Origin: Parasphingorhabdus litoris DSM 22379
GTDB taxonomy: Bacteria; Pseudomonadota; Alphaproteobacteria; Sphingomonadales; Sphingomonadaceae
DNA: 64,000 nt
Reading direction: 5' to 3'
Assembly (NCBI RefSeq): GCF_020906275.1
Contig: NZ_CP086727.1
Coordinates: 2,046,001 to 2,110,000 of the forward strand
A model generated the notes under the pieces. The model ran no database searches and was not told the DNA's origin. It worked only from the letters and a program-made list of their open reading frames with translations. The position numbers were made by a program, and so were the translations under genes. Of this stretch, positions 24,964-48,434 are shown one piece after another. The stretch's first letter is position 1. The number at the start of each line of letters is the position of its first letter.

Positions 24964-27312
24964 TTACTGCCGGGGAAGATGGAGGGTAACAAGCGTGCCC
25001 TGACCCAGCTCCGACGTGAGCGTCAGTTCGCCATTGTGAGCAAGCAATAATTGCCGAGCAAGTGGTAGGCCCAGCCCGCCTGTATTTTCACCGGACTTTT
25101 TGCGGGATCGCGCAAAGCTGTCAAAGGCCTTGGACTGCTGACCAGGACTCATACCGGGACCATTGTCAGAGATATGAATTACAGCCTGCTTCACATTACC
25201 GCTGCCGTTGATAAGAATACGTCCTCCCCTTCCGGTATAGCGGATACTATTATCCACAATCTGAGCGATAGCTTGCGACAGCCGTTTCTTGTCAGCAAGC
25301 GCAGAGCCAAGTGTTTCATCCAATTGCAGTTCGACCTCTATTCCTTCTGCCTTTGCATCGTCGGTAAATTGCGCCGCGACATCTTCTACCAGCTTTTTGA
25401 GATTCACTTTCTCCTTGGCAATCGGCAAGGCTCCCGCCTCGCTCTGACTGAGATCCAACACATTGTCGATCTGCATACCCAGTCGTTTCACCGATTGTAG
25501 GATCGCTCTGGCATATTCATGTCCTTGTTCGGTCAAAGGCCCTGCCACTTCATTGTCTAGCAATTCAGCAAAACCTCCGATGGATGTCAGCGGCGTTCGG
25601 AATTCATAGCTCATATTGGACAGGAAAGCGGCTTTGATAGAATCTGCCTCTACCAATGCCTCGTTACGTTCGCGCAGCGCCAATTCTATACGGCGACTGT
25701 CTGATATATCGAGCATCGTAAACAACGCATTGCCATCAGGCAGCGGTATGGCAGCAAATTGAAAACGGCGTCCGTCGGCAAAAGACATTTGTCCACTTTG
25801 CTGCTCGCGCTCAGATGTCGCAGCACGCACCATTGTGCGCACTTCTGAAATTCGGGCTGGTTGTTTCAATTGCACAGCCATTTTCTGCATCAAAGTGTCA
25901 ACGCGAGGATGCTTCGCAAGATCTTCTTCATCCAGATTCCAAATGCTGGCAAACTGGTGGTTCCAAATGTTAAGTTTGCCGTCAGCAGCAAACACAGCGA
26001 CAGATTCAAACAAATTGTCGAATGTAGCCGTCCGAACGCGCAACAATGTATCTCTAGCGCTAGCCAGCTGGACCTGTTCCGTGCGATCCTCGATAATCAT
26101 CAACAAGCCGCCGTCCGGCGTCGGATTGGCAATAACCCGTAAATGTGTGCCATCAGCAAGCAACCAGTTCTCCTCAATGGAGCCGGTTGATTTAAACCAT
26201 GTCGTGCGATCTTCTCGCCATTCTGGAAAATCTCGAACCTCTGGAATCCGGTTCATCTCGCGCATTCGATCCAACACTCGAGGAAATTCGGGACGCTCTG
26301 CTATCCACTGTTGGCGCATAGAAAAAATACGCTGGAATGGTAGATTGCAGAACTGCAAGGATCTGTCCGCGTCAAACTGCACCACTGCCGCCGATATCTT
26401 GTCTAGCATATCCCGCTGCGATTCGTTGAAGCGCCTCTGTTCTTTGCGGGAATCGATCAGTTCCTGAATATCGATAGCATAACCTGCTATGCCAGATTTA
26501 CCGAGTGGGACATCAACCACCTGCGTAGTCCGCCGCTCCCCACCAATCGTGGTGGCCACTACACGTTCATGTGGCTCACCTTTCTCCTTGGCCTGCGCAG
26601 CTGCATCTTTGGGGCTGAAACCGTTGATTGGTTCGACGAGTTCAATCCCTTCCTCAACAACCTGAGCCCCATCTTCAGCATCCACAGCTTTCACATAGGC
26701 ACTATTTACCAGTGTCAGTTGCAAGTCGCGTGAACGATGCCACATAGGAACCGGAGCTGCCTCTATCAAAGCGGACAGCGCGTCAAATGCAGCATGCGCC
26801 TCTTCGTTTTCATTGCGCAGTTTTTCTATCTGATTTTGACTTTCTGTGGCGTCAAATACCCAAAGAAGTGCGCTTCCATTTGGCGCTATTTTCTGGTCTG
26901 CCAATCCGCCTCGAACCAACAAAGACTTGTCCGAGCCGTTGACCTTGATCGCTCTGGTGAAGCTGCTCCCAGATTTCTGGGCAAGGTTCACGTCCTGCGT
27001 TAATTCTTCAAGGTTTGCACGACTCATACCAGCGTCATTGTCATGAAGCTCCGAAATATGTGCAGGTAGATAATCGAAACCAAACCAGTGCATCAATCGC
27101 TGCGATGCTTCAAGTTTGCCGTCCGACCGCACCAATAAAGGCAGTGCAGGCGACGTTTCCAGCAGTCGGCCCAAACGTCCAGATTGACGCATAGTGGCGG
27201 CGGCCTTTTTTTTCATGGCCAACCCGGTCCAAACCGCCCAAGCAGACGCACCCAGCCAGATGGCGAGAATCAGGCCCAATATGATTGCGGTTAAGTCCGG
27301 AACGTTCGACAT
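24964..27312 (-). CDS. divL: DivL-like tyrosine-containing sensor kinase
   Basis: 782 residues: one N-terminal membrane helix (about residues 6-30), several PAS-type segments (about 50-560), then a HisKA-like helix pair and a HATPase domain. In the dimerisation helix the usual acceptor motif reads SNMSYEFRTPL, so the phospho-acceptor histidine is Tyr569 (codon TAT at 25606-25608). ATPase motifs remain intact (AQIVDNSIRYT, DNGPGM, GGLGLPLA). Length, the single membrane anchor, the PAS array and above all Tyr in place of His match Caulobacter DivL (Tyr550), which controls the CckA-CtrA pathway together with DivK. Adjacency to tsaE supports the call. It begins a minus-strand operon and diverges from moaB. 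Confidence 0.87.
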   Translation of the reverse strand: MSNVPDLTAIILGLILAIWLGASAWAVWTGLAMKKKAAATMRQSGRLGRLLETSPALPLLVRSDGKLEASQRLMHWFGFDYLPAHISELHDNDAGMSRANLEELTQDVNLAQKSGSSFTRAIKVNGSDKSLLVRGGLADQKIAPNGSALLWVFDATESQNQIEKLRNENEEAHAAFDALSALIEAAPVPMWHRSRDLQLTLVNSAYVKAVDAEDGAQVVEEGIELVEPINGFSPKDAAAQAKEKGEPHERVVATTIGGERRTTQVVDVPLGKSGIAGYAIDIQELIDSRKEQRRFNESQRDMLDKISAAVVQFDADRSLQFCNLPFQRIFSMRQQWIAERPEFPRVLDRMREMNRIPEVRDFPEWREDRTTWFKSTGSIEENWLLADGTHLRVIANPTPDGGLLMIIEDRTEQVQLASARDTLLRVRTATFDNLFESVAVFAADGKLNIWNHQFASIWNLDEEDLAKHPRVDTLMQKMAVQLKQPARISEVRTMVRAATSEREQQSGQMSFADGRRFQFAAIPLPDGNALFTMLDISDSRRIELALRERNEALVEADSIKAAFLSNMSYEFRTPLTSIGGFAELLDNEVAGPLTEQGHEYARAILQSVKRLGMQIDNVLDLSQSEAGALPIAKEKVNLKKLVEDVAAQFTDDAKAEGIEVELQLDETLGSALADKKRLSQAIAQIVDNSIRYTGRGGRILINGSGNVKQAVIHISDNGPGMSPGQQSKAFDSFARSRKKSGENTGGLGLPLARQLLLAHNGELTLTSELGQGTLVTLHLPRQ

Positions 27313-40554: not shown

Positions 40555-41841
40555 GTGGGCAACAATAGCGCATCATTCGGCCTAGGCGGCGAGAACTACG
40601 AATTTCCCGTGATGCAGGGTACCGAAGGGCCGGATGTCGTTGATATTCGGAAACTTTATGGGCAAACTGGTGCCTTCACTTACGATCCAGGCTTCAAGTC
40701 AACAGCCAGCTGTGAATCGGAATTGACCTTTATCGATGGCGGTGAAGGCGTCTTGCTTCATCGCGGCTATCCCATTGGCCAATTGGCTGAAAAAAGCAGC
40801 TTCATGGAAGTGGCCCATCTGCTGCTGCGCGGCGAGCTTCCGACTTCAGATGAATATGCTGACTTCACAAATACGATCACGCGCCACACGATGCTGCATG
40901 ATCAGTTCTCAACCTTCTACAACGGCTTTCGCCGCGATGCTCATCCGATGGCAATCATGTGCGGTGTCGTTGGTGCGCTATCGGCTTTCTATCACGACAG
41001 CACGGATATCAGCGATCCCGAACAACGGATGATCGCAAGTCACCGGTTGATCGCTAAAATGCCGACCATCGCGGCAATGGCCTACAAATATGCCGTTGGT
41101 CAGCCCTTCATGCATCCAGATAACAGCCTGTCTTACACCGGCAATTTCCTGCGCATGACATTTGGCGTTCCTGCCGAACCCTATGAAGTTGTTCCTGCCG
41201 TTGAAAAAGCAATGGACCGGATTTTTATCCTCCATGCCGACCACGAACAAAATGCTTCGACGTCCACTGTGCGTCTCGCCGGTTCATCTGGCGCCAACCC
41301 ATTTGCCTGTATCGCAGCCGGCATTGCTTGCCTCTGGGGCCCTGCCCATGGCGGTGCCAATGAAGCCGCACTTAACATGCTCCACGAAATCGGCCATCCG
41401 GACCGGATTCCTGAATATATTGAACGCGCGAAAGACAAGAATGACCCATTCCGCCTGATGGGCTTTGGTCACCGCGTGTACAAAAACCATGACCCGCGTG
41501 CGACTGTTATGCAGAAAACTGTGCGCGAAGTCTTTGATGCATTGAAAGTCTCTGACCCAGTGTTTGAAGTTGCTCTGCAGCTCGAAGAAATGGCGCTCAA
41601 CGACGACTATTTCAAAGAGAAGAAGCTGTTCCCGAACGTGGACTTCTATTCCGGCATCATTCTTTCCGCCATCGGTTTCCCAACCTCTATGTTTACCGCG
41701 CTCTTCGCGCTGGCCCGGACGGTTGGTTGGGTTGCCCAATGGAACGAAATGATTTCTGATCCTGGCCAGGTGATCGGACGTCCGCGTCAGCTTTACACGG
41801 GGCCAACACAGCGTGACTATGTCGACATCGACAAGCGCTAA
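40555..41841 (+). CDS. gltA: Citrate synthase
   Basis: 428 residues of the type II (hexameric, NADH-regulated class) citrate synthase. It condenses oxaloacetate with acetyl-CoA. Active-site motifs include [22 protein letters not shown] with the first His, [27 protein letters not shown] with the second His, and [10 protein letters not shown] with the catalytic Asp. The start is GTG 40555 with AAAGGA upstream. The gene ends at a strong terminator. Confidence 0.96.
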
Positions 41842-41893: not shown

Positions 41894-43294
41894 CTAAATC
41901 GTACGCGACGGCAGGCTAAGCTTGAACGTAGAACCTTTACCCACGGCGCTCTCGACGGTCAGGCTCCCATCCATGGCGTTTGCTAAACGGCGGGAAATAA
42001 ACAATCCCAGCCCACTGCCACCATCACCGGAACGTCCCAATCTTTCAAATTTTTCAAATATACGTTGTTGATCTTCTACAGCGATCCCATCGCCCTGATC
42101 GCGGACGGTAACTGCAGAAAACTCACCTTCTGACGCCACTCGCAATTTGATTACCGAACCATCAGGTGAATACCGGATCGCATTGCCAATCAGATTCACC
42201 AATATTTGAAGAACTCTACGAAATTCACCTCTCACAGGCATTTTCAAGTCTTTCTCCGGAAGATCAATTCGGATCTGATGATCCGCTGCCTTGACCGCAA
42301 GCAAGCCAGCGGCGCGATGAGCGAGGTCCACCAGGTCGATATCATCTGCCGCAACCGAAAAGCTTGTCCGCTGAATGGCTTCTAGATCAGAGAGATCATT
42401 GACCAAGTCCATCAGATGGCGGCCTGCCGAGGCAATGTCTTTTGCATAGTTGGAATAGTCGCCACGCAGGGGACCTTCCAACCGACTGCCAATTGTTTCT
42501 GCATTGGCAATGATTTTGCCTAGTGGCTGACGCAATGCCGGTCCGAGCTGTGAACCAAAAAGAGAGTCACTGATCAGATCGCCTTCACCGAACCGCGTTT
42601 CTGTGTCGTCTCGATTTTCATCCGCTTCACGCTCTTGGTCCAGTTCAAGCGAAAACCGATAGCCAGAGAAAAGTCCCTCATTGTCGATCAACGGTTGTCC
42701 GGAAAGCGTATAGAATGACTTTTTACCTTGCCTCTGCCGGACATGTTGTCCCCGCACAGGTTGACGCTCTGAAATAGACTCAATCAATACGCTTTGTTTT
42801 GATGGCTCTACAAATTCGAGAACATCCAAAAGGGAGTGACCAACGTAATTTTCAATCGCATCCAAATCACCGGGCAATGATAGGGCCATGATCCGTAAAG
42901 AAGCATCGGTGCGGATGGAACCCCGCCCGTTCAAGCGATCGAAATCCCTTCTACGACTTGGCTCTTCGCGATTTGTCGAAGGCGCTGGTGACTCCTTCCA
43001 ATCAACAATGCTGATCGCAATCGCCCCCTCATGCTGTCCGCGCAGAAGTCGAATTTCAACCCACATGCTGATCAGATTTTCCTCGTCGGCAGCCTGCACC
43101 GGACGTGACAGATTCATGTCCAGTTGACGACTTAGGCGGCAAAGATTCAACAATTGAGGAATAGCGAGAGGTCCGCCTTCATATCCACCGCAATGCAAAT
43201 GCAAACGCAGCAGCGGCGGATCTGCCGAGACCAGGCAACCATTAGCATCCAATTGCCCGCGCACAGGCTCGGCAAGATTGCCCGACTTCGTCAT
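41894..43294 (-). CDS. Histidine-kinase-like protein lacking the acceptor histidine
   Basis: 466 residues, no membrane helix. A divergent N-terminal region and a PAS-like segment (about 130-220, with NEGLFSGYRFSLELD) are followed by a HisKA-like helix pair and a clear HATPase domain. The acceptor motif reads GPALRQPLGKII where SHELRTPLNAI is expected, so His is replaced by Pro252 (codon CCG, 42539-42541). The ATP-binding motifs remain intact: ILVNLIGNAIRYS, RDQGDGI and GSGLGLFISRRLA. It may therefore be a pseudokinase or an allosteric partner, like other kinase-fold proteins without His. Its ATG overlaps the stop of the DUF2336 gene (TGATG), so both are made together. It ends at the shared terminator. 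Confidence 0.82.
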   Translation of the reverse strand: MTKSGNLAEPVRGQLDANGCLVSADPPLLRLHLHCGGYEGGPLAIPQLLNLCRLSRQLDMNLSRPVQAADEENLISMWVEIRLLRGQHEGAIAISIVDWKESPAPSTNREEPSRRRDFDRLNGRGSIRTDASLRIMALSLPGDLDAIENYVGHSLLDVLEFVEPSKQSVLIESISERQPVRGQHVRQRQGKKSFYTLSGQPLIDNEGLFSGYRFSLELDQEREADENRDDTETRFGEGDLISDSLFGSQLGPALRQPLGKIIANAETIGSRLEGPLRGDYSNYAKDIASAGRHLMDLVNDLSDLEAIQRTSFSVAADDIDLVDLAHRAAGLLAVKAADHQIRIDLPEKDLKMPVRGEFRRVLQILVNLIGNAIRYSPDGSVIKLRVASEGEFSAVTVRDQGDGIAVEDQQRIFEKFERLGRSGDGGSGLGLFISRRLANAMDGSLTVESAVGKGSTFKLSLPSRTI

Positions 43295-44349
43295 CAAGCT
43301 GGCAAACCCGAAAGATGCGCATTTAGCTGATGCTGCGCATTCTGATAGAGTGCATTGGTGGACCAGCTAGCAACCAGTTGCTTGGCTTTTTCTGTTTCGA
43401 TTTCTTCATAGGAGGCACGGGTCAACACCTGCCCACCGGCATCCAGCGCACCGAAAATTGACAGCGCATGATCAGCTGGAATTTCTATTGCGCGCATGGT
43501 CAAAACCAAACGAACCATATTTGGTTCTGCCGTAAACAGAATGAGCTGATCGACAGACAATCCCGAACGTCTTGCAATACGAGCAAAAAATAGATCCAAC
43601 CCATCATGTATGGGATGAGGTTCCTGTTTTCCCTCCGCTACTTCGTCTACAAGCTGCGCCAGTCTCGCCGCCCGAATTGGCGTTGCAATCCCTTCGTCAT
43701 GTTGGCTGAGCAATTTTTCCGCAGCTTTTGTCAGTTCTTGACCTTCGTCACCTGACATTTTCTGGAGTGCTGCGGTTACCGGCCAAGTCAGTGCAAACAA
43801 GATGTCGGCAGGCAAATTCGCGATATGGGCTTGCAAGGAACCGGATCCTGCGCTGGCACGGCTTTGCGCGACCAACAGGGCCATCGCAGCGTCAGCAACC
43901 GAGGCATCTTCATCATCCAGATAACGCGTCAATACCGCCTCAAGATCGGCTTGGGATACGCGTTGCAACAGACGCGTGTTTAGTTCCGCACGCTGCACAC
44001 AGGTAAAGACATTATCGAGCAACGTCTTACTTTCGAGCAGGCCGGCATTTTGCAACAACCCATAGCTATGAACGCGGCCACTATTTCCAATCTCGATAAC
44101 GATATCTTGCTGCATACCGAAATCTTCAGCTGCGATCATGCAAATTTCAGTTTCTATTTCCTGAACAATGGTGCGAAGATATTGACGCCCATTGGACAAC
44201 ATCCGATCAGTCAGAATAACCTCTGATTTTGGAAATAAAGCGGACGCAAGATCATCCGCGATATACCCGCTGGAAATGCCAATTGCAGAAGCTTGCTGAA
44301 CAAGCCCAACGCCTGGATTCCGTTCCATTGAAAAGTCTCGTGTCGCCAT
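43294..44349 (-). CDS. DUF2336 domain protein
   Basis: 351 mostly helical, soluble residues. The region from about residue 60 to 300 fits the DUF2336 pattern of HEAT-like helical repeats (for example RVSQADLEAVLTRYLDDEDASVADAAMALLV, and near residue 260 ARRSGLSVDQLILFTAEPN). The function of DUF2336 is not established; members are mostly alphaproteobacterial and often lie near signalling genes. Here it is coupled to the kinase-like gene downstream and follows the membrane protein gene by about 50 bases. A protein-protein interaction role is plausible but unproved. Confidence 0.8.
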   Translation of the reverse strand: MATRDFSMERNPGVGLVQQASAIGISSGYIADDLASALFPKSEVILTDRMLSNGRQYLRTIVQEIETEICMIAAEDFGMQQDIVIEIGNSGRVHSYGLLQNAGLLESKTLLDNVFTCVQRAELNTRLLQRVSQADLEAVLTRYLDDEDASVADAAMALLVAQSRASAGSGSLQAHIANLPADILFALTWPVTAALQKMSGDEGQELTKAAEKLLSQHDEGIATPIRAARLAQLVDEVAEGKQEPHPIHDGLDLFFARIARRSGLSVDQLILFTAEPNMVRLVLTMRAIEIPADHALSIFGALDAGGQVLTRASYEEIETEKAKQLVASWSTNALYQNAQHQLNAHLSGLPA

Positions 44350-44400
44350 GGAGTTACCCCTAGGCTAATGTGGTTAATATCTGGCTAAGTGCAACATCCA

Positions 44401-45603
44401 CTATGCGATAGGATCTGTGCGCTCTTGATCGGTTGAACTAAGTCGCTGTTTAGCGATAATAAACAAGAGACAGAATAGCGGAGCAAAATAAAGCCCAAAC
44501 AAAAAAATATTCAATGCCGCGGCTAGAAATAAAATCAGTAATATCAATGGAATATCGGGGAAAAGTCCATTCAGATGACGACCTTCTGGTTCTGCGAAAA
44601 TGATCCACAGAATTCCGAAGAGCAAAAGCAATATGGTTATATGGGCGAATAATGATTCCACCCGCGCATAATGGACGACCGCAACTGTCAAGACGGCTGC
44701 TGCCAGCAGATGAAAACAAAGACCTACCAAGTCGGTTCTTTGATCCTGTCGGGAAAAAATTGAAAGACGGCGATGAAGCATAATTGCCAAAGAACCGGTC
44801 AATAGCAAGCCTAGTGACAGAACAGGCCAACCGAATAGCGCCATTATCAATGCAATCAAGCCAGCCCCCAAGCTTGCAAAACCAGTGTAATTTTTCGCAC
44901 CGGGCGATTTCCAAAGCAAAGGAATGATCTTTCGCATCAACGGCCAGATGGCGAACCGATCAAGCCAATTTTGCTTGGGTATCTTGACTATATTCAACTG
45001 CCGAATGGCATAAGCTGCGCTCTCCTCGGCTTGTTGCAAGCGGGGAACCGCATCCATCTGCATATCGGCATCTGAAACCAATTCACGTTTGCATTCCGCT
45101 TGGACTGCGGTTCGAAGTAATGCCGATCCGACATCCCAATCATCCGGGATTTCTGCAATTTCTGACAAGCGTTCCGACCTTAAAACGGCAATACCAAGCC
45201 ATCTATGAGTAAGGTCGATACGCTCAAAATTTTGATACTCATCAGCGTTGGAAACAACATAAATTAGCTCTTCCGATGCCGCAGACAGCTTCCGTTCAAT
45301 GGCTTCATCAGGAAAAACACCATCGGCAAGAAAGACAAGATCGCTGCCCTGCGTGGGATATTCCTGCAAATCTGAAGCATTTCGAACAATATCGATCTTA
45401 ACGTTGCTATTCCGCAATCCGTCGGCATATTGCAGGAGGCCGCCGTGCATAGTTGGGCTCAGCAGAATGATCTTCTCTGCCCCCATTCGCATCGCTGACT
45501 CAACCTGTTTCGAGAGAATATTGCGGTCAAAAAGAGGTAACATCCCTGCTGGCGGATCTCCCGCAGAAGTTTCGGCCGATAGTGAAATTAATGCCAGTCT
45601 CAA
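44401..45603 (-). CDS. Membrane protein with nucleotidyltransferase-like N-terminal domain
   Basis: 400 residues. The N-terminal 200 look like a degenerate sugar-nucleotidyltransferase fold: LISLSAETSAGDPPAGMLPL, then FDRNILSKQVESAMRMGAEKIILL, and DLVFLADGVFPDEA in place of the usual metal site. After a linker rich in charged residues, about residues 235-390 hold six or so membrane helices (for example GLIALIMALFGWPVLSLGLL). The order resembles enzymes that join a nucleotidyltransferase to a phosphatidyltransferase, but the CDP-alcohol signature is not visible, so catalytic activity is doubtful. It lies between the Hpt-like and DUF2336 genes on the same strand. I do not recognise a named family. 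Confidence 0.65.
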   Translation of the reverse strand: MRLALISLSAETSAGDPPAGMLPLFDRNILSKQVESAMRMGAEKIILLSPTMHGGLLQYADGLRNSNVKIDIVRNASDLQEYPTQGSDLVFLADGVFPDEAIERKLSAASEELIYVVSNADEYQNFERIDLTHRWLGIAVLRSERLSEIAEIPDDWDVGSALLRTAVQAECKRELVSDADMQMDAVPRLQQAEESAAYAIRQLNIVKIPKQNWLDRFAIWPLMRKIIPLLWKSPGAKNYTGFASLGAGLIALIMALFGWPVLSLGLLLTGSLAIMLHRRLSIFSRQDQRTDLVGLCFHLLAAAVLTVAVVHYARVESLFAHITILLLLFGILWIIFAEPEGRHLNGLFPDIPLILLILFLAAALNIFLFGLYFAPLFCLLFIIAKQRLSSTDQERTDPIA

Positions 45604-45710
45604 TGAAATATCCCAATTAGCTAGCCGAACGACTTAAGCTTCATATAGGATTTAGAGATGGAGCATAAAAGCGATATCTGCTCATAGCCGTGCGCTGTTA
45701 GACTGTATTT

Positions 45711-46019
45711 TCAGTCTCGATGATCTTCGATCGTCTTAATTGCCTGCTCTAGCCGTCTCAAAACAGTTGGCTCGCCTGGCGCAGCGGTTGCTGCTTCTTC
45801 TGCCAACAAGAGAACTTGCCTGGCTCCAAAGCTGGCCGCCAAGCCCTTCAAACGCCATGCAGCATAGTGCCAGTTGGCATCACAACGGGCCCGATGCAGC
45901 AGATCAACCTGCCGTTTCGCGCTCTCTAAAAAGGCCGTGCGTAGCTCAGCAATTAGGGACTGATCGTCACCTACAGCAGCGGCCAATGCCGCGTCGAGCG
46001 CTCCATAATCAAATGACAT
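45711..46019 (-). CDS. Hpt-like protein with tryptophan replacing the acceptor histidine
   Basis: 102 residues with the layout of a histidine phosphotransfer four-helix bundle: a first helix FLESAKRQVDLLHRA, then AAWRLKGLAASFGARQVLLLAEEAA, which follows the Hpt pattern AxHxLKGxxxxxG. The phospho-acceptor position is Trp55 (codon TGG, 45855-45857) rather than His, while the Lys and Gly that usually surround it remain. A nearby His50 is out of register. The protein cannot relay phosphate in the normal way and may act as a binding scaffold. It heads the minus-strand set that includes the acceptor-less kinase-like protein. A small stem, agactg/cagtct, spans its stop codon. Confidence 0.75.
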   Translation of the reverse strand: MSFDYGALDAALAAAVGDDQSLIAELRTAFLESAKRQVDLLHRARCDANWHYAAWRLKGLAASFGARQVLLLAEEAATAAPGEPTVLRRLEQAIKTIEDHRD

Positions 46020-46145
46020 GAGGCTTTTCTACGGTGCCATGGTTAACTTATAGTTTCTCCCGGCGACATTTAATGGTAAATGAGAATCATGACAGGTGGA
46101 TCAAAAATTATCGGAATTAGGCGTGACCGGGGCACGGAGCCTCAC

Positions 46146-48434
46146 ATGGAACATGTCGAGATTGATGAAACTGATGGCGAAGAAGCCCTTGAGCTCAGCG
46201 ATGATGATCGTGAGAGCGAGGAGGAAATCGATACAAATCAACAAGTTGACGGGGCCGATAGCGATGAAGAGTGGAGCCATTATGCGGATGAAGAAGTAAG
46301 TTCTGCTTCAAAGTCCCATTATGTCGCACCGACACTATTGGGAATCTCCATCGCCATTTGGACAGGCTTATTCCTCTGGGTCAATCAAGAGATTTTTTCC
46401 GTGATTCCTTCCATGAAAGGCGGAATCGACCTTTTCTCGCAATATTGTATGCCGGTTGCCACCCTCGCGGTGCTCTATTTGCTCTATATGAGGAACAGCA
46501 CGCGGGAGGCAAAACGCTTTGATGATGTGGGATCATCTCTGCGCGCCGAATCCGAGCAGCTGGAATTTCGTCTAAAGACAGTCAATAACGAGCTGGCAAT
46601 GGCACGTGAGTTTCTGGCCGGTGAAACGAGAGAATTGGAAACACTGGGTAGCCAGTCTTCCGAGAAATTGAACAATGCAGCGAGTAACATAAAATCCGCT
46701 CTCAGTGATGGCTTGTCCAAAATGAAAAAGCTCGATGATGTCGGCGGCGCTGCTTACAAAAATCTTGAACAGCTGCGCGAACATCTGCCTGTGGTTATCA
46801 ACACCGCTAAAGATGTAACCAACCAGATCGGCAATTCTGGGCGATCCGCTCAAGCCGAAATTGCAGCGATGGTCACCACGCTCAAGCGCGTAGGCGATGT
46901 TGGAACGGCGGCTAAAGAGAGCCTCGATGAGTTAAATCATCGGTCTGAGGAATCTTTAGAGAATCTCGCAAAAACAGCAGAAGACATTAAGCAGAAATTC
47001 ACTGCGCAATTGTCTGAGGCCGAAACCGGCACCAACCGCATTGCCGGGGTTTTAAAGAACGCATCCACCGAAGTTATCGAAGCGCTGCATAAAACGCGCG
47101 CGGAATTGGCCACCGAGTCATCAGAAAGTTCACAGGCCATCAAGGCAGACCTCGCGGCTTTGGAAGAGACGCTGGTGACAGTTGGCAAAGCGGCGGATGA
47201 CGAAGAAACACGCCTCAAGGATTTGGTTGCCGGTCTGAATGAAAATATCCTCGAGATTTCCACCAAAGTGGAAACGCTCGACAATGAAAGCGGTGAAAAA
47301 ACCGCAAAACTTGCCTTTGCCATGACTGCGCTGGAGCAGAATAGCGATGCACTCAAAAAATCGATCGAAGAAGGTCATGGCACAGCCGATGGCATGATCG
47401 AGCGTATTGAGCAGTTGTTGGTTGCGTTGGACAGCAGTGCCAGAGAGCTTGATGAAACATTGCCGGCTGCGTTTGAGCGGATGAATGAGAAAACTGAAAG
47501 CAGTTTTGCCACATTTAACCGCATGACCGAAGAGGCGGCAAAAGTTGGCACTGTTACTGAAGAAGTCACGGCGAAAATTGAAAAATCAGATGAAGCCATT
47601 GAAGAACAACGGGCGAAGCTCGCCAAACTAAGTCATGATGGAAATATCGCGACCGACAATGTTCTCGGAAAAATCGATGGCTTGGCGAAAGAGTTGCAAG
47701 ATGTTCGTGATCAAAATGAGGCTTTGGCAGAAAGTGCTGGCGAAAAACTGATCAGCGCGCTGCTTCGTGTAAAAGAAACAGCAAGACAAGCGTCCGAGCA
47801 TTCTCGAGAAGCTCTGGAGAAATCCATATCCGGCTCTGCGGAAGCCTTTGAGAAGGTCAGTGAAGAAGCTCTCAACAAGATTATCGACGAGAAGATAACG
47901 TCGATCGCACCCAAGCTGGAAAAAGCTGTTTCCAATGCCGTCGCCACAACTGAGTCGACCGCAGGTCATCTGACCAGCCAGCTCAACGCAATTGAGGAAA
48001 TGACGGTCAAGCTGGAACAACGCATTTTGTTCGCGAAAGAAAAAGCGGAGCAGAGCAGTGAAGAGAATTTCACGCGCCGGGTTGCGTCACTCACCGAGTC
48101 ACTCAACTCCACTGCCATAGACGTGACCAAATTGCTGTCGAACGAGGTAACCGACACCGAATGGGCCGCTTATCTGAAAGGAGATCGCGGTATCTTCACC
48201 CGTCGGGCGGTACGCCTGCTCGATGCCGGAGAGGTCCGCGAAATATTATCAGAATATGACAGCAACTCCGAGTTCCGCGAACATGTAAACCGCTATATTC
48301 ACGACTTTGAAACGATGCTCCGCGGTGTCCTGGCAACCCGAGACGGAAGTGCGGTAAGTGTTACTTTGCTGTCATCTGACATCGGCAAACTATATGTCGC
48401 ATTGGCACAAGCAATCGAACGCCTTCGTAGCTAG
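46146..48434 (+). CDS. Long membrane-anchored coiled-coil protein
   Basis: 762 residues from ATG 46146, chosen for GGAG six bases upstream; starts at 46080 or 46089 add up to 22 residues in rare-codon-rich sequence. The first 50 residues are strongly acidic (Asp/Glu-rich), then two membrane helices (about 60-79 and 99-115), then about 500 residues of continuous coiled coil rich in Ala, Glu, Lys and Ser. The coil resembles the signalling coil of chemoreceptors but lacks their conserved tip. The final 110 residues form a compact domain containing TEWAAYLKGDRGIFTRRAVRLLD and RYIHDFETMLRGVLATRDGS. I recognise this as a conserved sphingomonad protein type without a known role. It diverges from the Hpt-like gene, 126 bases apart. 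Confidence 0.78.
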   Translation: MEHVEIDETDGEEALELSDDDRESEEEIDTNQQVDGADSDEEWSHYADEEVSSASKSHYVAPTLLGISIAIWTGLFLWVNQEIFSVIPSMKGGIDLFSQYCMPVATLAVLYLLYMRNSTREAKRFDDVGSSLRAESEQLEFRLKTVNNELAMAREFLAGETRELETLGSQSSEKLNNAASNIKSALSDGLSKMKKLDDVGGAAYKNLEQLREHLPVVINTAKDVTNQIGNSGRSAQAEIAAMVTTLKRVGDVGTAAKESLDELNHRSEESLENLAKTAEDIKQKFTAQLSEAETGTNRIAGVLKNASTEVIEALHKTRAELATESSESSQAIKADLAALEETLVTVGKAADDEETRLKDLVAGLNENILEISTKVETLDNESGEKTAKLAFAMTALEQNSDALKKSIEEGHGTADGMIERIEQLLVALDSSARELDETLPAAFERMNEKTESSFATFNRMTEEAAKVGTVTEEVTAKIEKSDEAIEEQRAKLAKLSHDGNIATDNVLGKIDGLAKELQDVRDQNEALAESAGEKLISALLRVKETARQASEHSREALEKSISGSAEAFEKVSEEALNKIIDEKITSIAPKLEKAVSNAVATTESTAGHLTSQLNAIEEMTVKLEQRILFAKEKAEQSSEENFTRRVASLTESLNSTAIDVTKLLSNEVTDTEWAAYLKGDRGIFTRRAVRLLDAGEVREILSEYDSNSEFREHVNRYIHDFETMLRGVLATRDGSAVSVTLLSSDIGKLYVALAQAIERLRS

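Follow-up and report, generated by a model that had tools for sequence, protein, structure and literature searches.

An operon of the Sphingomonadaceae in which both the histidine kinase and the Hpt protein lack their phosphoacceptor histidines

We analyzed a 64,000-nucleotide window, that is, the whole stretch of DNA considered here, from Parasphingorhabdus litoris DSM 22379 (GCF_020906275.1, NZ_CP086727.1, positions 2,046,001-2,110,000, forward strand), and focused on a four-gene operon on its reverse strand that encodes a kinase and an Hpt protein devoid of their phosphate acceptors. From its first gene onward, the operon encodes a pseudo-Hpt of 102 residues with Trp55 (codon 45855-45857) at the acceptor position (45711..46019, -), a membrane protein of 400 residues that combines a nucleotidyltransferase-like domain with a degenerate CDP-alcohol phosphotransferase membrane domain (44401..45603, -), a DUF2336-like helical protein of 351 residues (43294..44349, -), and a histidine kinase of 466 residues with Pro252 (codon 42539-42541) at the acceptor position and intact ATP-binding motifs (41894..43294, -). 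Gaps of 107 and 51 bases separate the first three genes, and the DUF2336-like and kinase genes overlap. Upon examining 91 loci of relatives, we found the same order and co-direction at all 57 loci having all four genes, so that the co-directional set described for this one genome by an initial annotation of the locus turned out to be a conserved one, and the flanking gene neighbourhood was likewise found again in relatives.

The loss of the kinase acceptor extends over most of the family. In the DHp domain of the window kinase, Pro252-Ala253 replaces the acceptor His and the Glu/Asp that follows it, while the N-terminal half, read by eye, is presumably PAS-like. A search of 119 Sphingomonadaceae genomes gave a match at E ≤ 1e-20 in 114 of them, generic kinases included, and 91 regions were taken. 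Across 92 aligned kinases, the window's included, the acceptor column holds Pro in 52, His in 8, and Arg, Ala, Gln, Lys, Glu, or other residues in the rest. On the main kinase tree, built with the acceptor columns removed and rooted on four canonical kinases, 86 kinases formed one supported clade (97, starred), in which 84, spanning 68 genera, have no acceptor His; the six canonical kinases (SHELRTPL) all fall outside it. L110 and L111, from one genus with 2.1 Mb genomes, lie within the clade on a long branch and carry the acceptor His without the Glu (DHSFKPPL); their genomes gave no Hpt profile match. Outside the tree are three more His-less kinases, read or aligned by eye, namely those of G070 and G018 (Pro) and of G077 (Asp), as well as those of G005 and G099 (L198, L289), which are truncated to DHp-CA, lack the acceptor His, and lie beside DUF2336, with an Hpt that has His. 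The kinases of G024 and G109, both counted among the 88 kinase-bearing genomes, carry His.

The Hpt protein showed the same pattern. The window Hpt, predicted to form the four-helix Hpt fold, has Trp55 in place of the acceptor His of HxLKG, and among the 78 of 119 genomes with an Hpt profile match, 72 Hpts lack the acceptor His (62 of 64 at kinase loci, nine of 13 found elsewhere, and that of G018). Leu, Gln, Met, Trp, and others occupy the column instead; among 120 listed database homologues (of 2194 matches), none had His, 109 had Trp, and 11 had Leu. Hence, the acceptor losses reported by the initial annotation for this one kinase and this one Hpt were borne out at the level of the family, with the qualification that conservation concerns the lack of His rather than Pro (52/92) or Trp themselves. 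The Hpt is also the most conserved member of the operon, with a mean column identity of 56% (alignment A2, 63 of 64 rows) versus 26% for the membrane protein (A1, the window and 76 of 80 orthologues), 33% for DUF2336, and 41% for the kinase (A4, 43 of 92 rows), although these alignments differ in make-up.

The two acceptors are mostly absent together. In 75 genomes both acceptor states are known; 69 of these lack both and three (G085, G056, G040) have both. An Hpt was found in 72 of the 88 genomes with a clade kinase. Of the 25 genomes first scored as kinase-less, three had an Hpt (G005, G099, G117). The 88/25 split scored these three and G077 as kinase-less, and each was later found to have a kinase or kinase fragment: in G117 a piece at a contig end and in G077 a kinase adjoining citrate synthase. 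None of the 21 genomes that remained kinase-less gave an Hpt match, where match scores do not separate truncated orthologues of the G005 and G099 type from generic kinases and some of these genomes may thus have truncated kinases. As six outgroup kinases bear His, and five Hpts from early-branching or side lineages do too, the history is one of loss, and the ancestor of the module, judged from these sequences, was probably an ordinary phosphorelay. The initial annotation had reasoned that homologues with His would make this strain a point loss; such homologues do exist in outgroup and early lineages, but the family-wide absence of His in kinases and Hpt homologues rules out a point loss in one strain. 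Separately, L195 and L199 pair a canonical kinase with DUF2336, and the same stretches carry flagellin or FlgK genes along with another DUF2336 gene, which may point to an ancestor connected with motility.

Patterns of gene presence suggest a link between the module and the CtrA network. The genome studied here has 25 receiver domains. A DivK-like receiver was found in 101 of the 119 genomes; the one of this genome has 1m5t as its best PDB match (E 7.6e-36), its CpdR scores 180.1 bits on NF046022 against a cut-off of 180, and L219, going by motif, we take to be its ChpT-like protein. In the 103 of 119 genomes on the citrate-synthase tree (six were dropped as incomplete, the rest had no usable sequence), kinase and DivK were both present in 82, the kinase alone in two, DivK alone in five, and neither in 14 (Fisher p 1.8e-11, with rows that are not independent). 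Comparing the lists by hand, the only kinase-bearing genomes without CpdR were G024, G034, G056, and G109. Among differing independent pairs, the mean number in the expected versus the opposite direction was 2.1 versus 0.1 for DivK and 3.4 versus 0.0 for Hpt. What can safely be said is that loss of the module tends to coincide with loss of CtrA-network receivers, and we link the module to the network because kinase-less genomes usually have neither DivK nor CpdR. As far as the cited part of an earlier survey goes, Sphingomonadales keep CckA-ChpT-CtrA, with DivJ-PleC-DivK degenerate or lost (PMC2877005).

The membrane protein adds a third degenerate component. Its structural model (predicted local distance difference test score, pLDDT, 91) matches AF2299 (PDB 4o6m) across approximately its whole length, with a weak Foldseek E of 3.2e-8 and template modelling (TM) scores of 0.54-0.65. 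It thus resembles AF2299-type CDP-alcohol phosphotransferases in its predicted overall fold but is unlike them in that the catalytic motif DGxDGxxAR, centred on DGxxAR, is gone. Scored by alignment (a strict regular expression matched 0 of 100 rows, even intact ones), DGxxAR stands at the motif column in just two (G017 and G085) among 81 syntenic orthologues, while the L093 orthologue has a look-alike 12 columns off. The full motif is present in G017, G085, G072, G101, and G003/G097 and, elsewhere in the order, in further families (G137, G130, G124). On this predicted fold and alignment, the protein is the third ex-enzyme of the operon, retaining a CDP-alcohol phosphotransferase fold minus the catalytic motif; the nucleotidyltransferase-like domain named by the initial annotation is there, but the protein is better termed a degenerate CDP-alcohol phosphotransferase. 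As to the DUF2336-like protein, it scores 12 bits against PF10098 (Pfam cut-off 34.6), and 20 of 56 syntenic orthologues match that family at E ≤ 0.01, the best at 5e-68; our literature search, thin on subscription journals, found no publications on DUF2336. An apparent DUF2336-kinase fusion in L064 was ruled out, as it is a single histidine kinase domain inside a long open frame.

The gene neighbours of some orthologues bear on the origin of the cluster. The clusters of G085 and G017 further include an inositol-1-phosphate synthase, a MobA-like transferase, and a Wzi-type capsule protein, and by coordinates the synthase adjoins the membrane gene in G072, G101, G003, G040, and G038. These orthologues and this adjacency make it likely that the ancestral genes formed an inositol-lipid or envelope cluster that had a relay of its own. 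The same observations, together with six stretches (G057, G046, G013, G027, G036, G045) in which the membrane gene adjoins the gene for a long coiled-coil membrane protein and the kinase, Hpt, and DUF2336 were not found, lend some weight to a different account, in which the operon would encode a membrane or envelope scaffold with an ancestral role in inositol-lipid or capsule synthesis and an output unrelated to receivers. The synthase occurs in 35 of the 119 genomes and was not found in the window's genome. We consider this scaffold unlikely, as the kinase keeps receiver-docking residues, described below, and tends to disappear with DivK and CpdR.

The residues that the kinase has kept and changed fit a re-purposed surface better than drift. 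Among the 84 His-less rows, the docking Arg at +3 from the acceptor position (window Arg255) is kept in 76 and Pro at +5 (Pro257) in 83, while Glu at +1 is found in none and Thr at +4 in three; Arg at +8, Ala at +11, and Asn at +12 are found in 79, 72, and 62, versus Ala, Gly, and Phe in the six canonical orthologues. We infer that this DHp surface may bind a receiver. The window kinase contains the HisKA N, G1, and G2 boxes (HATPase_c E 1.2e-25), and N367, N371, D399, G401, G426, G428, and G430 of its ATP site are invariant in 43 rows, canonical ones included. As such retention exceeds the need of a pure scaffold, the kinase might still be active in trans, its ATP domain phosphorylating a His or another residue on another protein or a heterodimer partner. 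The Glu beside the acceptor His is the base in HisKA catalysis, however, and its absence from all 84 His-less rows speaks against activity of this kind. DivL, too, keeps the ATP fold and, in the part of its description drawn on here, binds an ATP analogue weakly and has no kinase or phosphatase activity, while binding DivK~P (PMC4211667). We therefore regard activity in trans as quite improbable.

Alternatively, the acceptor may have shifted, with the phosphate carried by His293 of the kinase or, in part of the clade, by a His at +10 of the Hpt. His293 is invariant in 80 and in 43 rows, and a His replaces the conserved Gly at Hpt +10 in 35 of 64 Hpts, confined to loci with a Pro-type kinase (35/47). 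The canonical kinases, however, have His293 as well (6/6), the window Hpt has Gly65 at +10, and the invariant or nearly invariant columns of the Hpt alignment include no His, which makes a shifted acceptor very improbable.

We found the operon to be under purifying selection. Using our own Nei-Gojobori script on 25 contigs, the window, and L031, the ratio of nonsynonymous to synonymous substitution rates (dN/dS) lay at 0.06-0.40 for 46 of the 48 listed pairs of lowest dS, none of which includes the window; the two exceptional pairs (0.70 and 0.72) have proteins less than 50% identical. For pairs with dS < 1.5, the median was 0.29 for Hpt (81 pairs), 0.21 for the membrane protein (31), and 0.18 for DUF2336 (14). 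Slow decay, with relics heading for loss, is the least probable account, since the kinase is seemingly lost in 21 and an Hpt match missing in 41 of the 119 sampled genomes but dN/dS lies well below 1 in close pairs, residues have been newly fixed, and the 84 His-less kinases of 68 genera are accompanied by Hpts of 56% mean column identity. A loss that spans most of the family, with folds, gene order, and ATP site retained under purifying selection, is explained neither by a point loss nor by ordinary decay, in line with the view of the initial annotation that both acceptors were lost without the proteins decaying.

Each half of the module has a precedent. DivL of Caulobacter, like P. litoris an alphaproteobacterium, resembles the operon kinase in its replaced acceptor His, kept HATPase fold, and docking Arg at +3, and its structure 4q20 ranks 18th among the PDB matches of the window kinase (E 2.5e-15). 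In the cited part of the DivL work, mutation of the +3 Arg abolished DivK binding and mutations at +7 Thr, +12 Tyr, and +29 His also impaired it (PMC4211667). Yet DivL, which acts on CckA, carries Tyr, whereas the operon kinase has Pro, its acceptor residue varies among orthologues, and its gene shares an operon with a pseudo-Hpt. The operon kinase is not the sphingomonad DivL, as a separate DivL-like pseudokinase gene (24964-27312, -) has Tyr at the acceptor (NMSYEFRTPL) and 4q20 as its best PDB match (E 7.5e-38); the window thus holds two distinct acceptor-less kinases ~15 kb apart. Arabidopsis AHP6, an Hpt without the acceptor His, parallels the window Hpt but is a plant inhibitor of cytokinin signalling, and the cited part of its description mentions no paired pseudokinase (PMC3572949). 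The canonical orthologues L117 and L112 score against the DivJ and PdhS models, but far under the model cut-offs, as with other kinase models, and the window orthologue, unlike PdhS/DivJ-type kinases, has no acceptor. The initial annotation had held that no such module was described, and our literature search, made on listings of papers and thin on subscription journals, likewise found no paired pseudokinase/pseudo-Hpt module, although DivL and AHP6 precede its separate halves.

Next to the Hpt gene lies the divergent gene for the long coiled-coil membrane protein (46080..48434, +). It adjoins the Hpt gene in 13 of 13 stretches taken round Hpts, even where the Hpt sits apart from the kinase, and the protein may belong to the system. 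Beyond it are a small gene, presumably DUF1467, and an RNase J-like gene, with best matches just or well below family cut-offs. On the kinase side, the convergent flank of the conserved locus consists of the citrate synthase gene (40555..41841, +) and a glutamate-tRNA ligase gene, each above its NCBIfam cut-off. No receiver partner emerged near Hpts lying apart from the kinase in a search limited to nine profiles of our own and 13 stretches, and a promoter and terminator scan gave sites no more numerous than in shuffled sequence.

Taken together, we propose that in most Sphingomonadaceae a once-ordinary phosphorelay operon became a receiver-binding module that does not pass phosphate and whose output reaches the CtrA network, a reading to which we assign a probability of about 0.47. 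At the sequence level it is supported by the loss of both acceptors and of the membrane catalytic motif and by the retention of the ATP site, two docking residues, synteny, purifying selection, and predicted folds, as well as by the co-occurrence of kinase and Hpt. As His was lost in kinase and Hpt while selection persists, the operon probably signals through partner binding. The kinase dimer would act as a nucleotide-dependent conformational switch whose DHp face, with Arg255 and Pro257, docks receiver domains in the manner of DivL with DivK~P. The pseudo-Hpt would provide another receiver-binding surface, one that transfers no phosphate and competes for or titrates the same receiver or receivers, comparable to AHP6, which is held to act by competition. 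The DUF2336 and membrane proteins may anchor or scaffold both, and the output would most likely feed the CtrA/DivK/CpdR network; partner and output are conjectural. We favour signalling over scaffolding on sequence grounds, because the docking Arg and Pro are kept and the kinase tends to be lost along with DivK and CpdR. The stronger claim, that a whole relay operon turned phosphate-free, with pseudokinase, pseudo-Hpt, and ex-lipid-synthase forming an ATP-liganded receiver-binding switch of the CtrA network in most of the family, we consider doubtful.

Several observations weigh against this proposal, which draws on sequence. The parts of the module are separable, since 16 of the 88 kinase genomes have no Hpt and the Hpt, DUF2336, and membrane genes are each absent at other loci among the 91. 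A His-less kinase accompanies a His-bearing Hpt in three of the 75 genomes (G034, G005, G099) and the reverse in none, which rules out a strictly simultaneous loss of both acceptors. On a tree of DHp-CA only, the canonical group again lies on one side of a branch, but with support of 90, unstarred. The DivL positions +7, +12, and +29 are not kept in the operon kinases, being variable, mostly Asn, and Ser/Ala, respectively, and the median kinase dN/dS is 0.52 (76 pairs with dS < 1.5, including distant pairs and untrimmed starts). Independent-pair tests on four pairs on starred branches were not significant (median p 0.5 for DivK and 0.125 for Hpt). Furthermore, CpdR is absent in 12 of 19 kinase-less genomes, much as DivK is, and the profile therefore indicates the CtrA network and not DivK; with this control and the pair test, we dropped DivK as a specific partner.

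Lone pseudokinases such as DivL and lone pseudo-Hpts such as AHP6 are known, while here the two halves of a single bacterial relay share a co-inherited loss. The living canonical relatives provide a natural before-and-after series, and the comparison of His-bearing with His-less orthologues makes signalling without phosphotransfer by two-component proteins directly testable. For the Sphingomonadaceae, a large environmental family, the module may constitute an unstudied input into the CtrA network.

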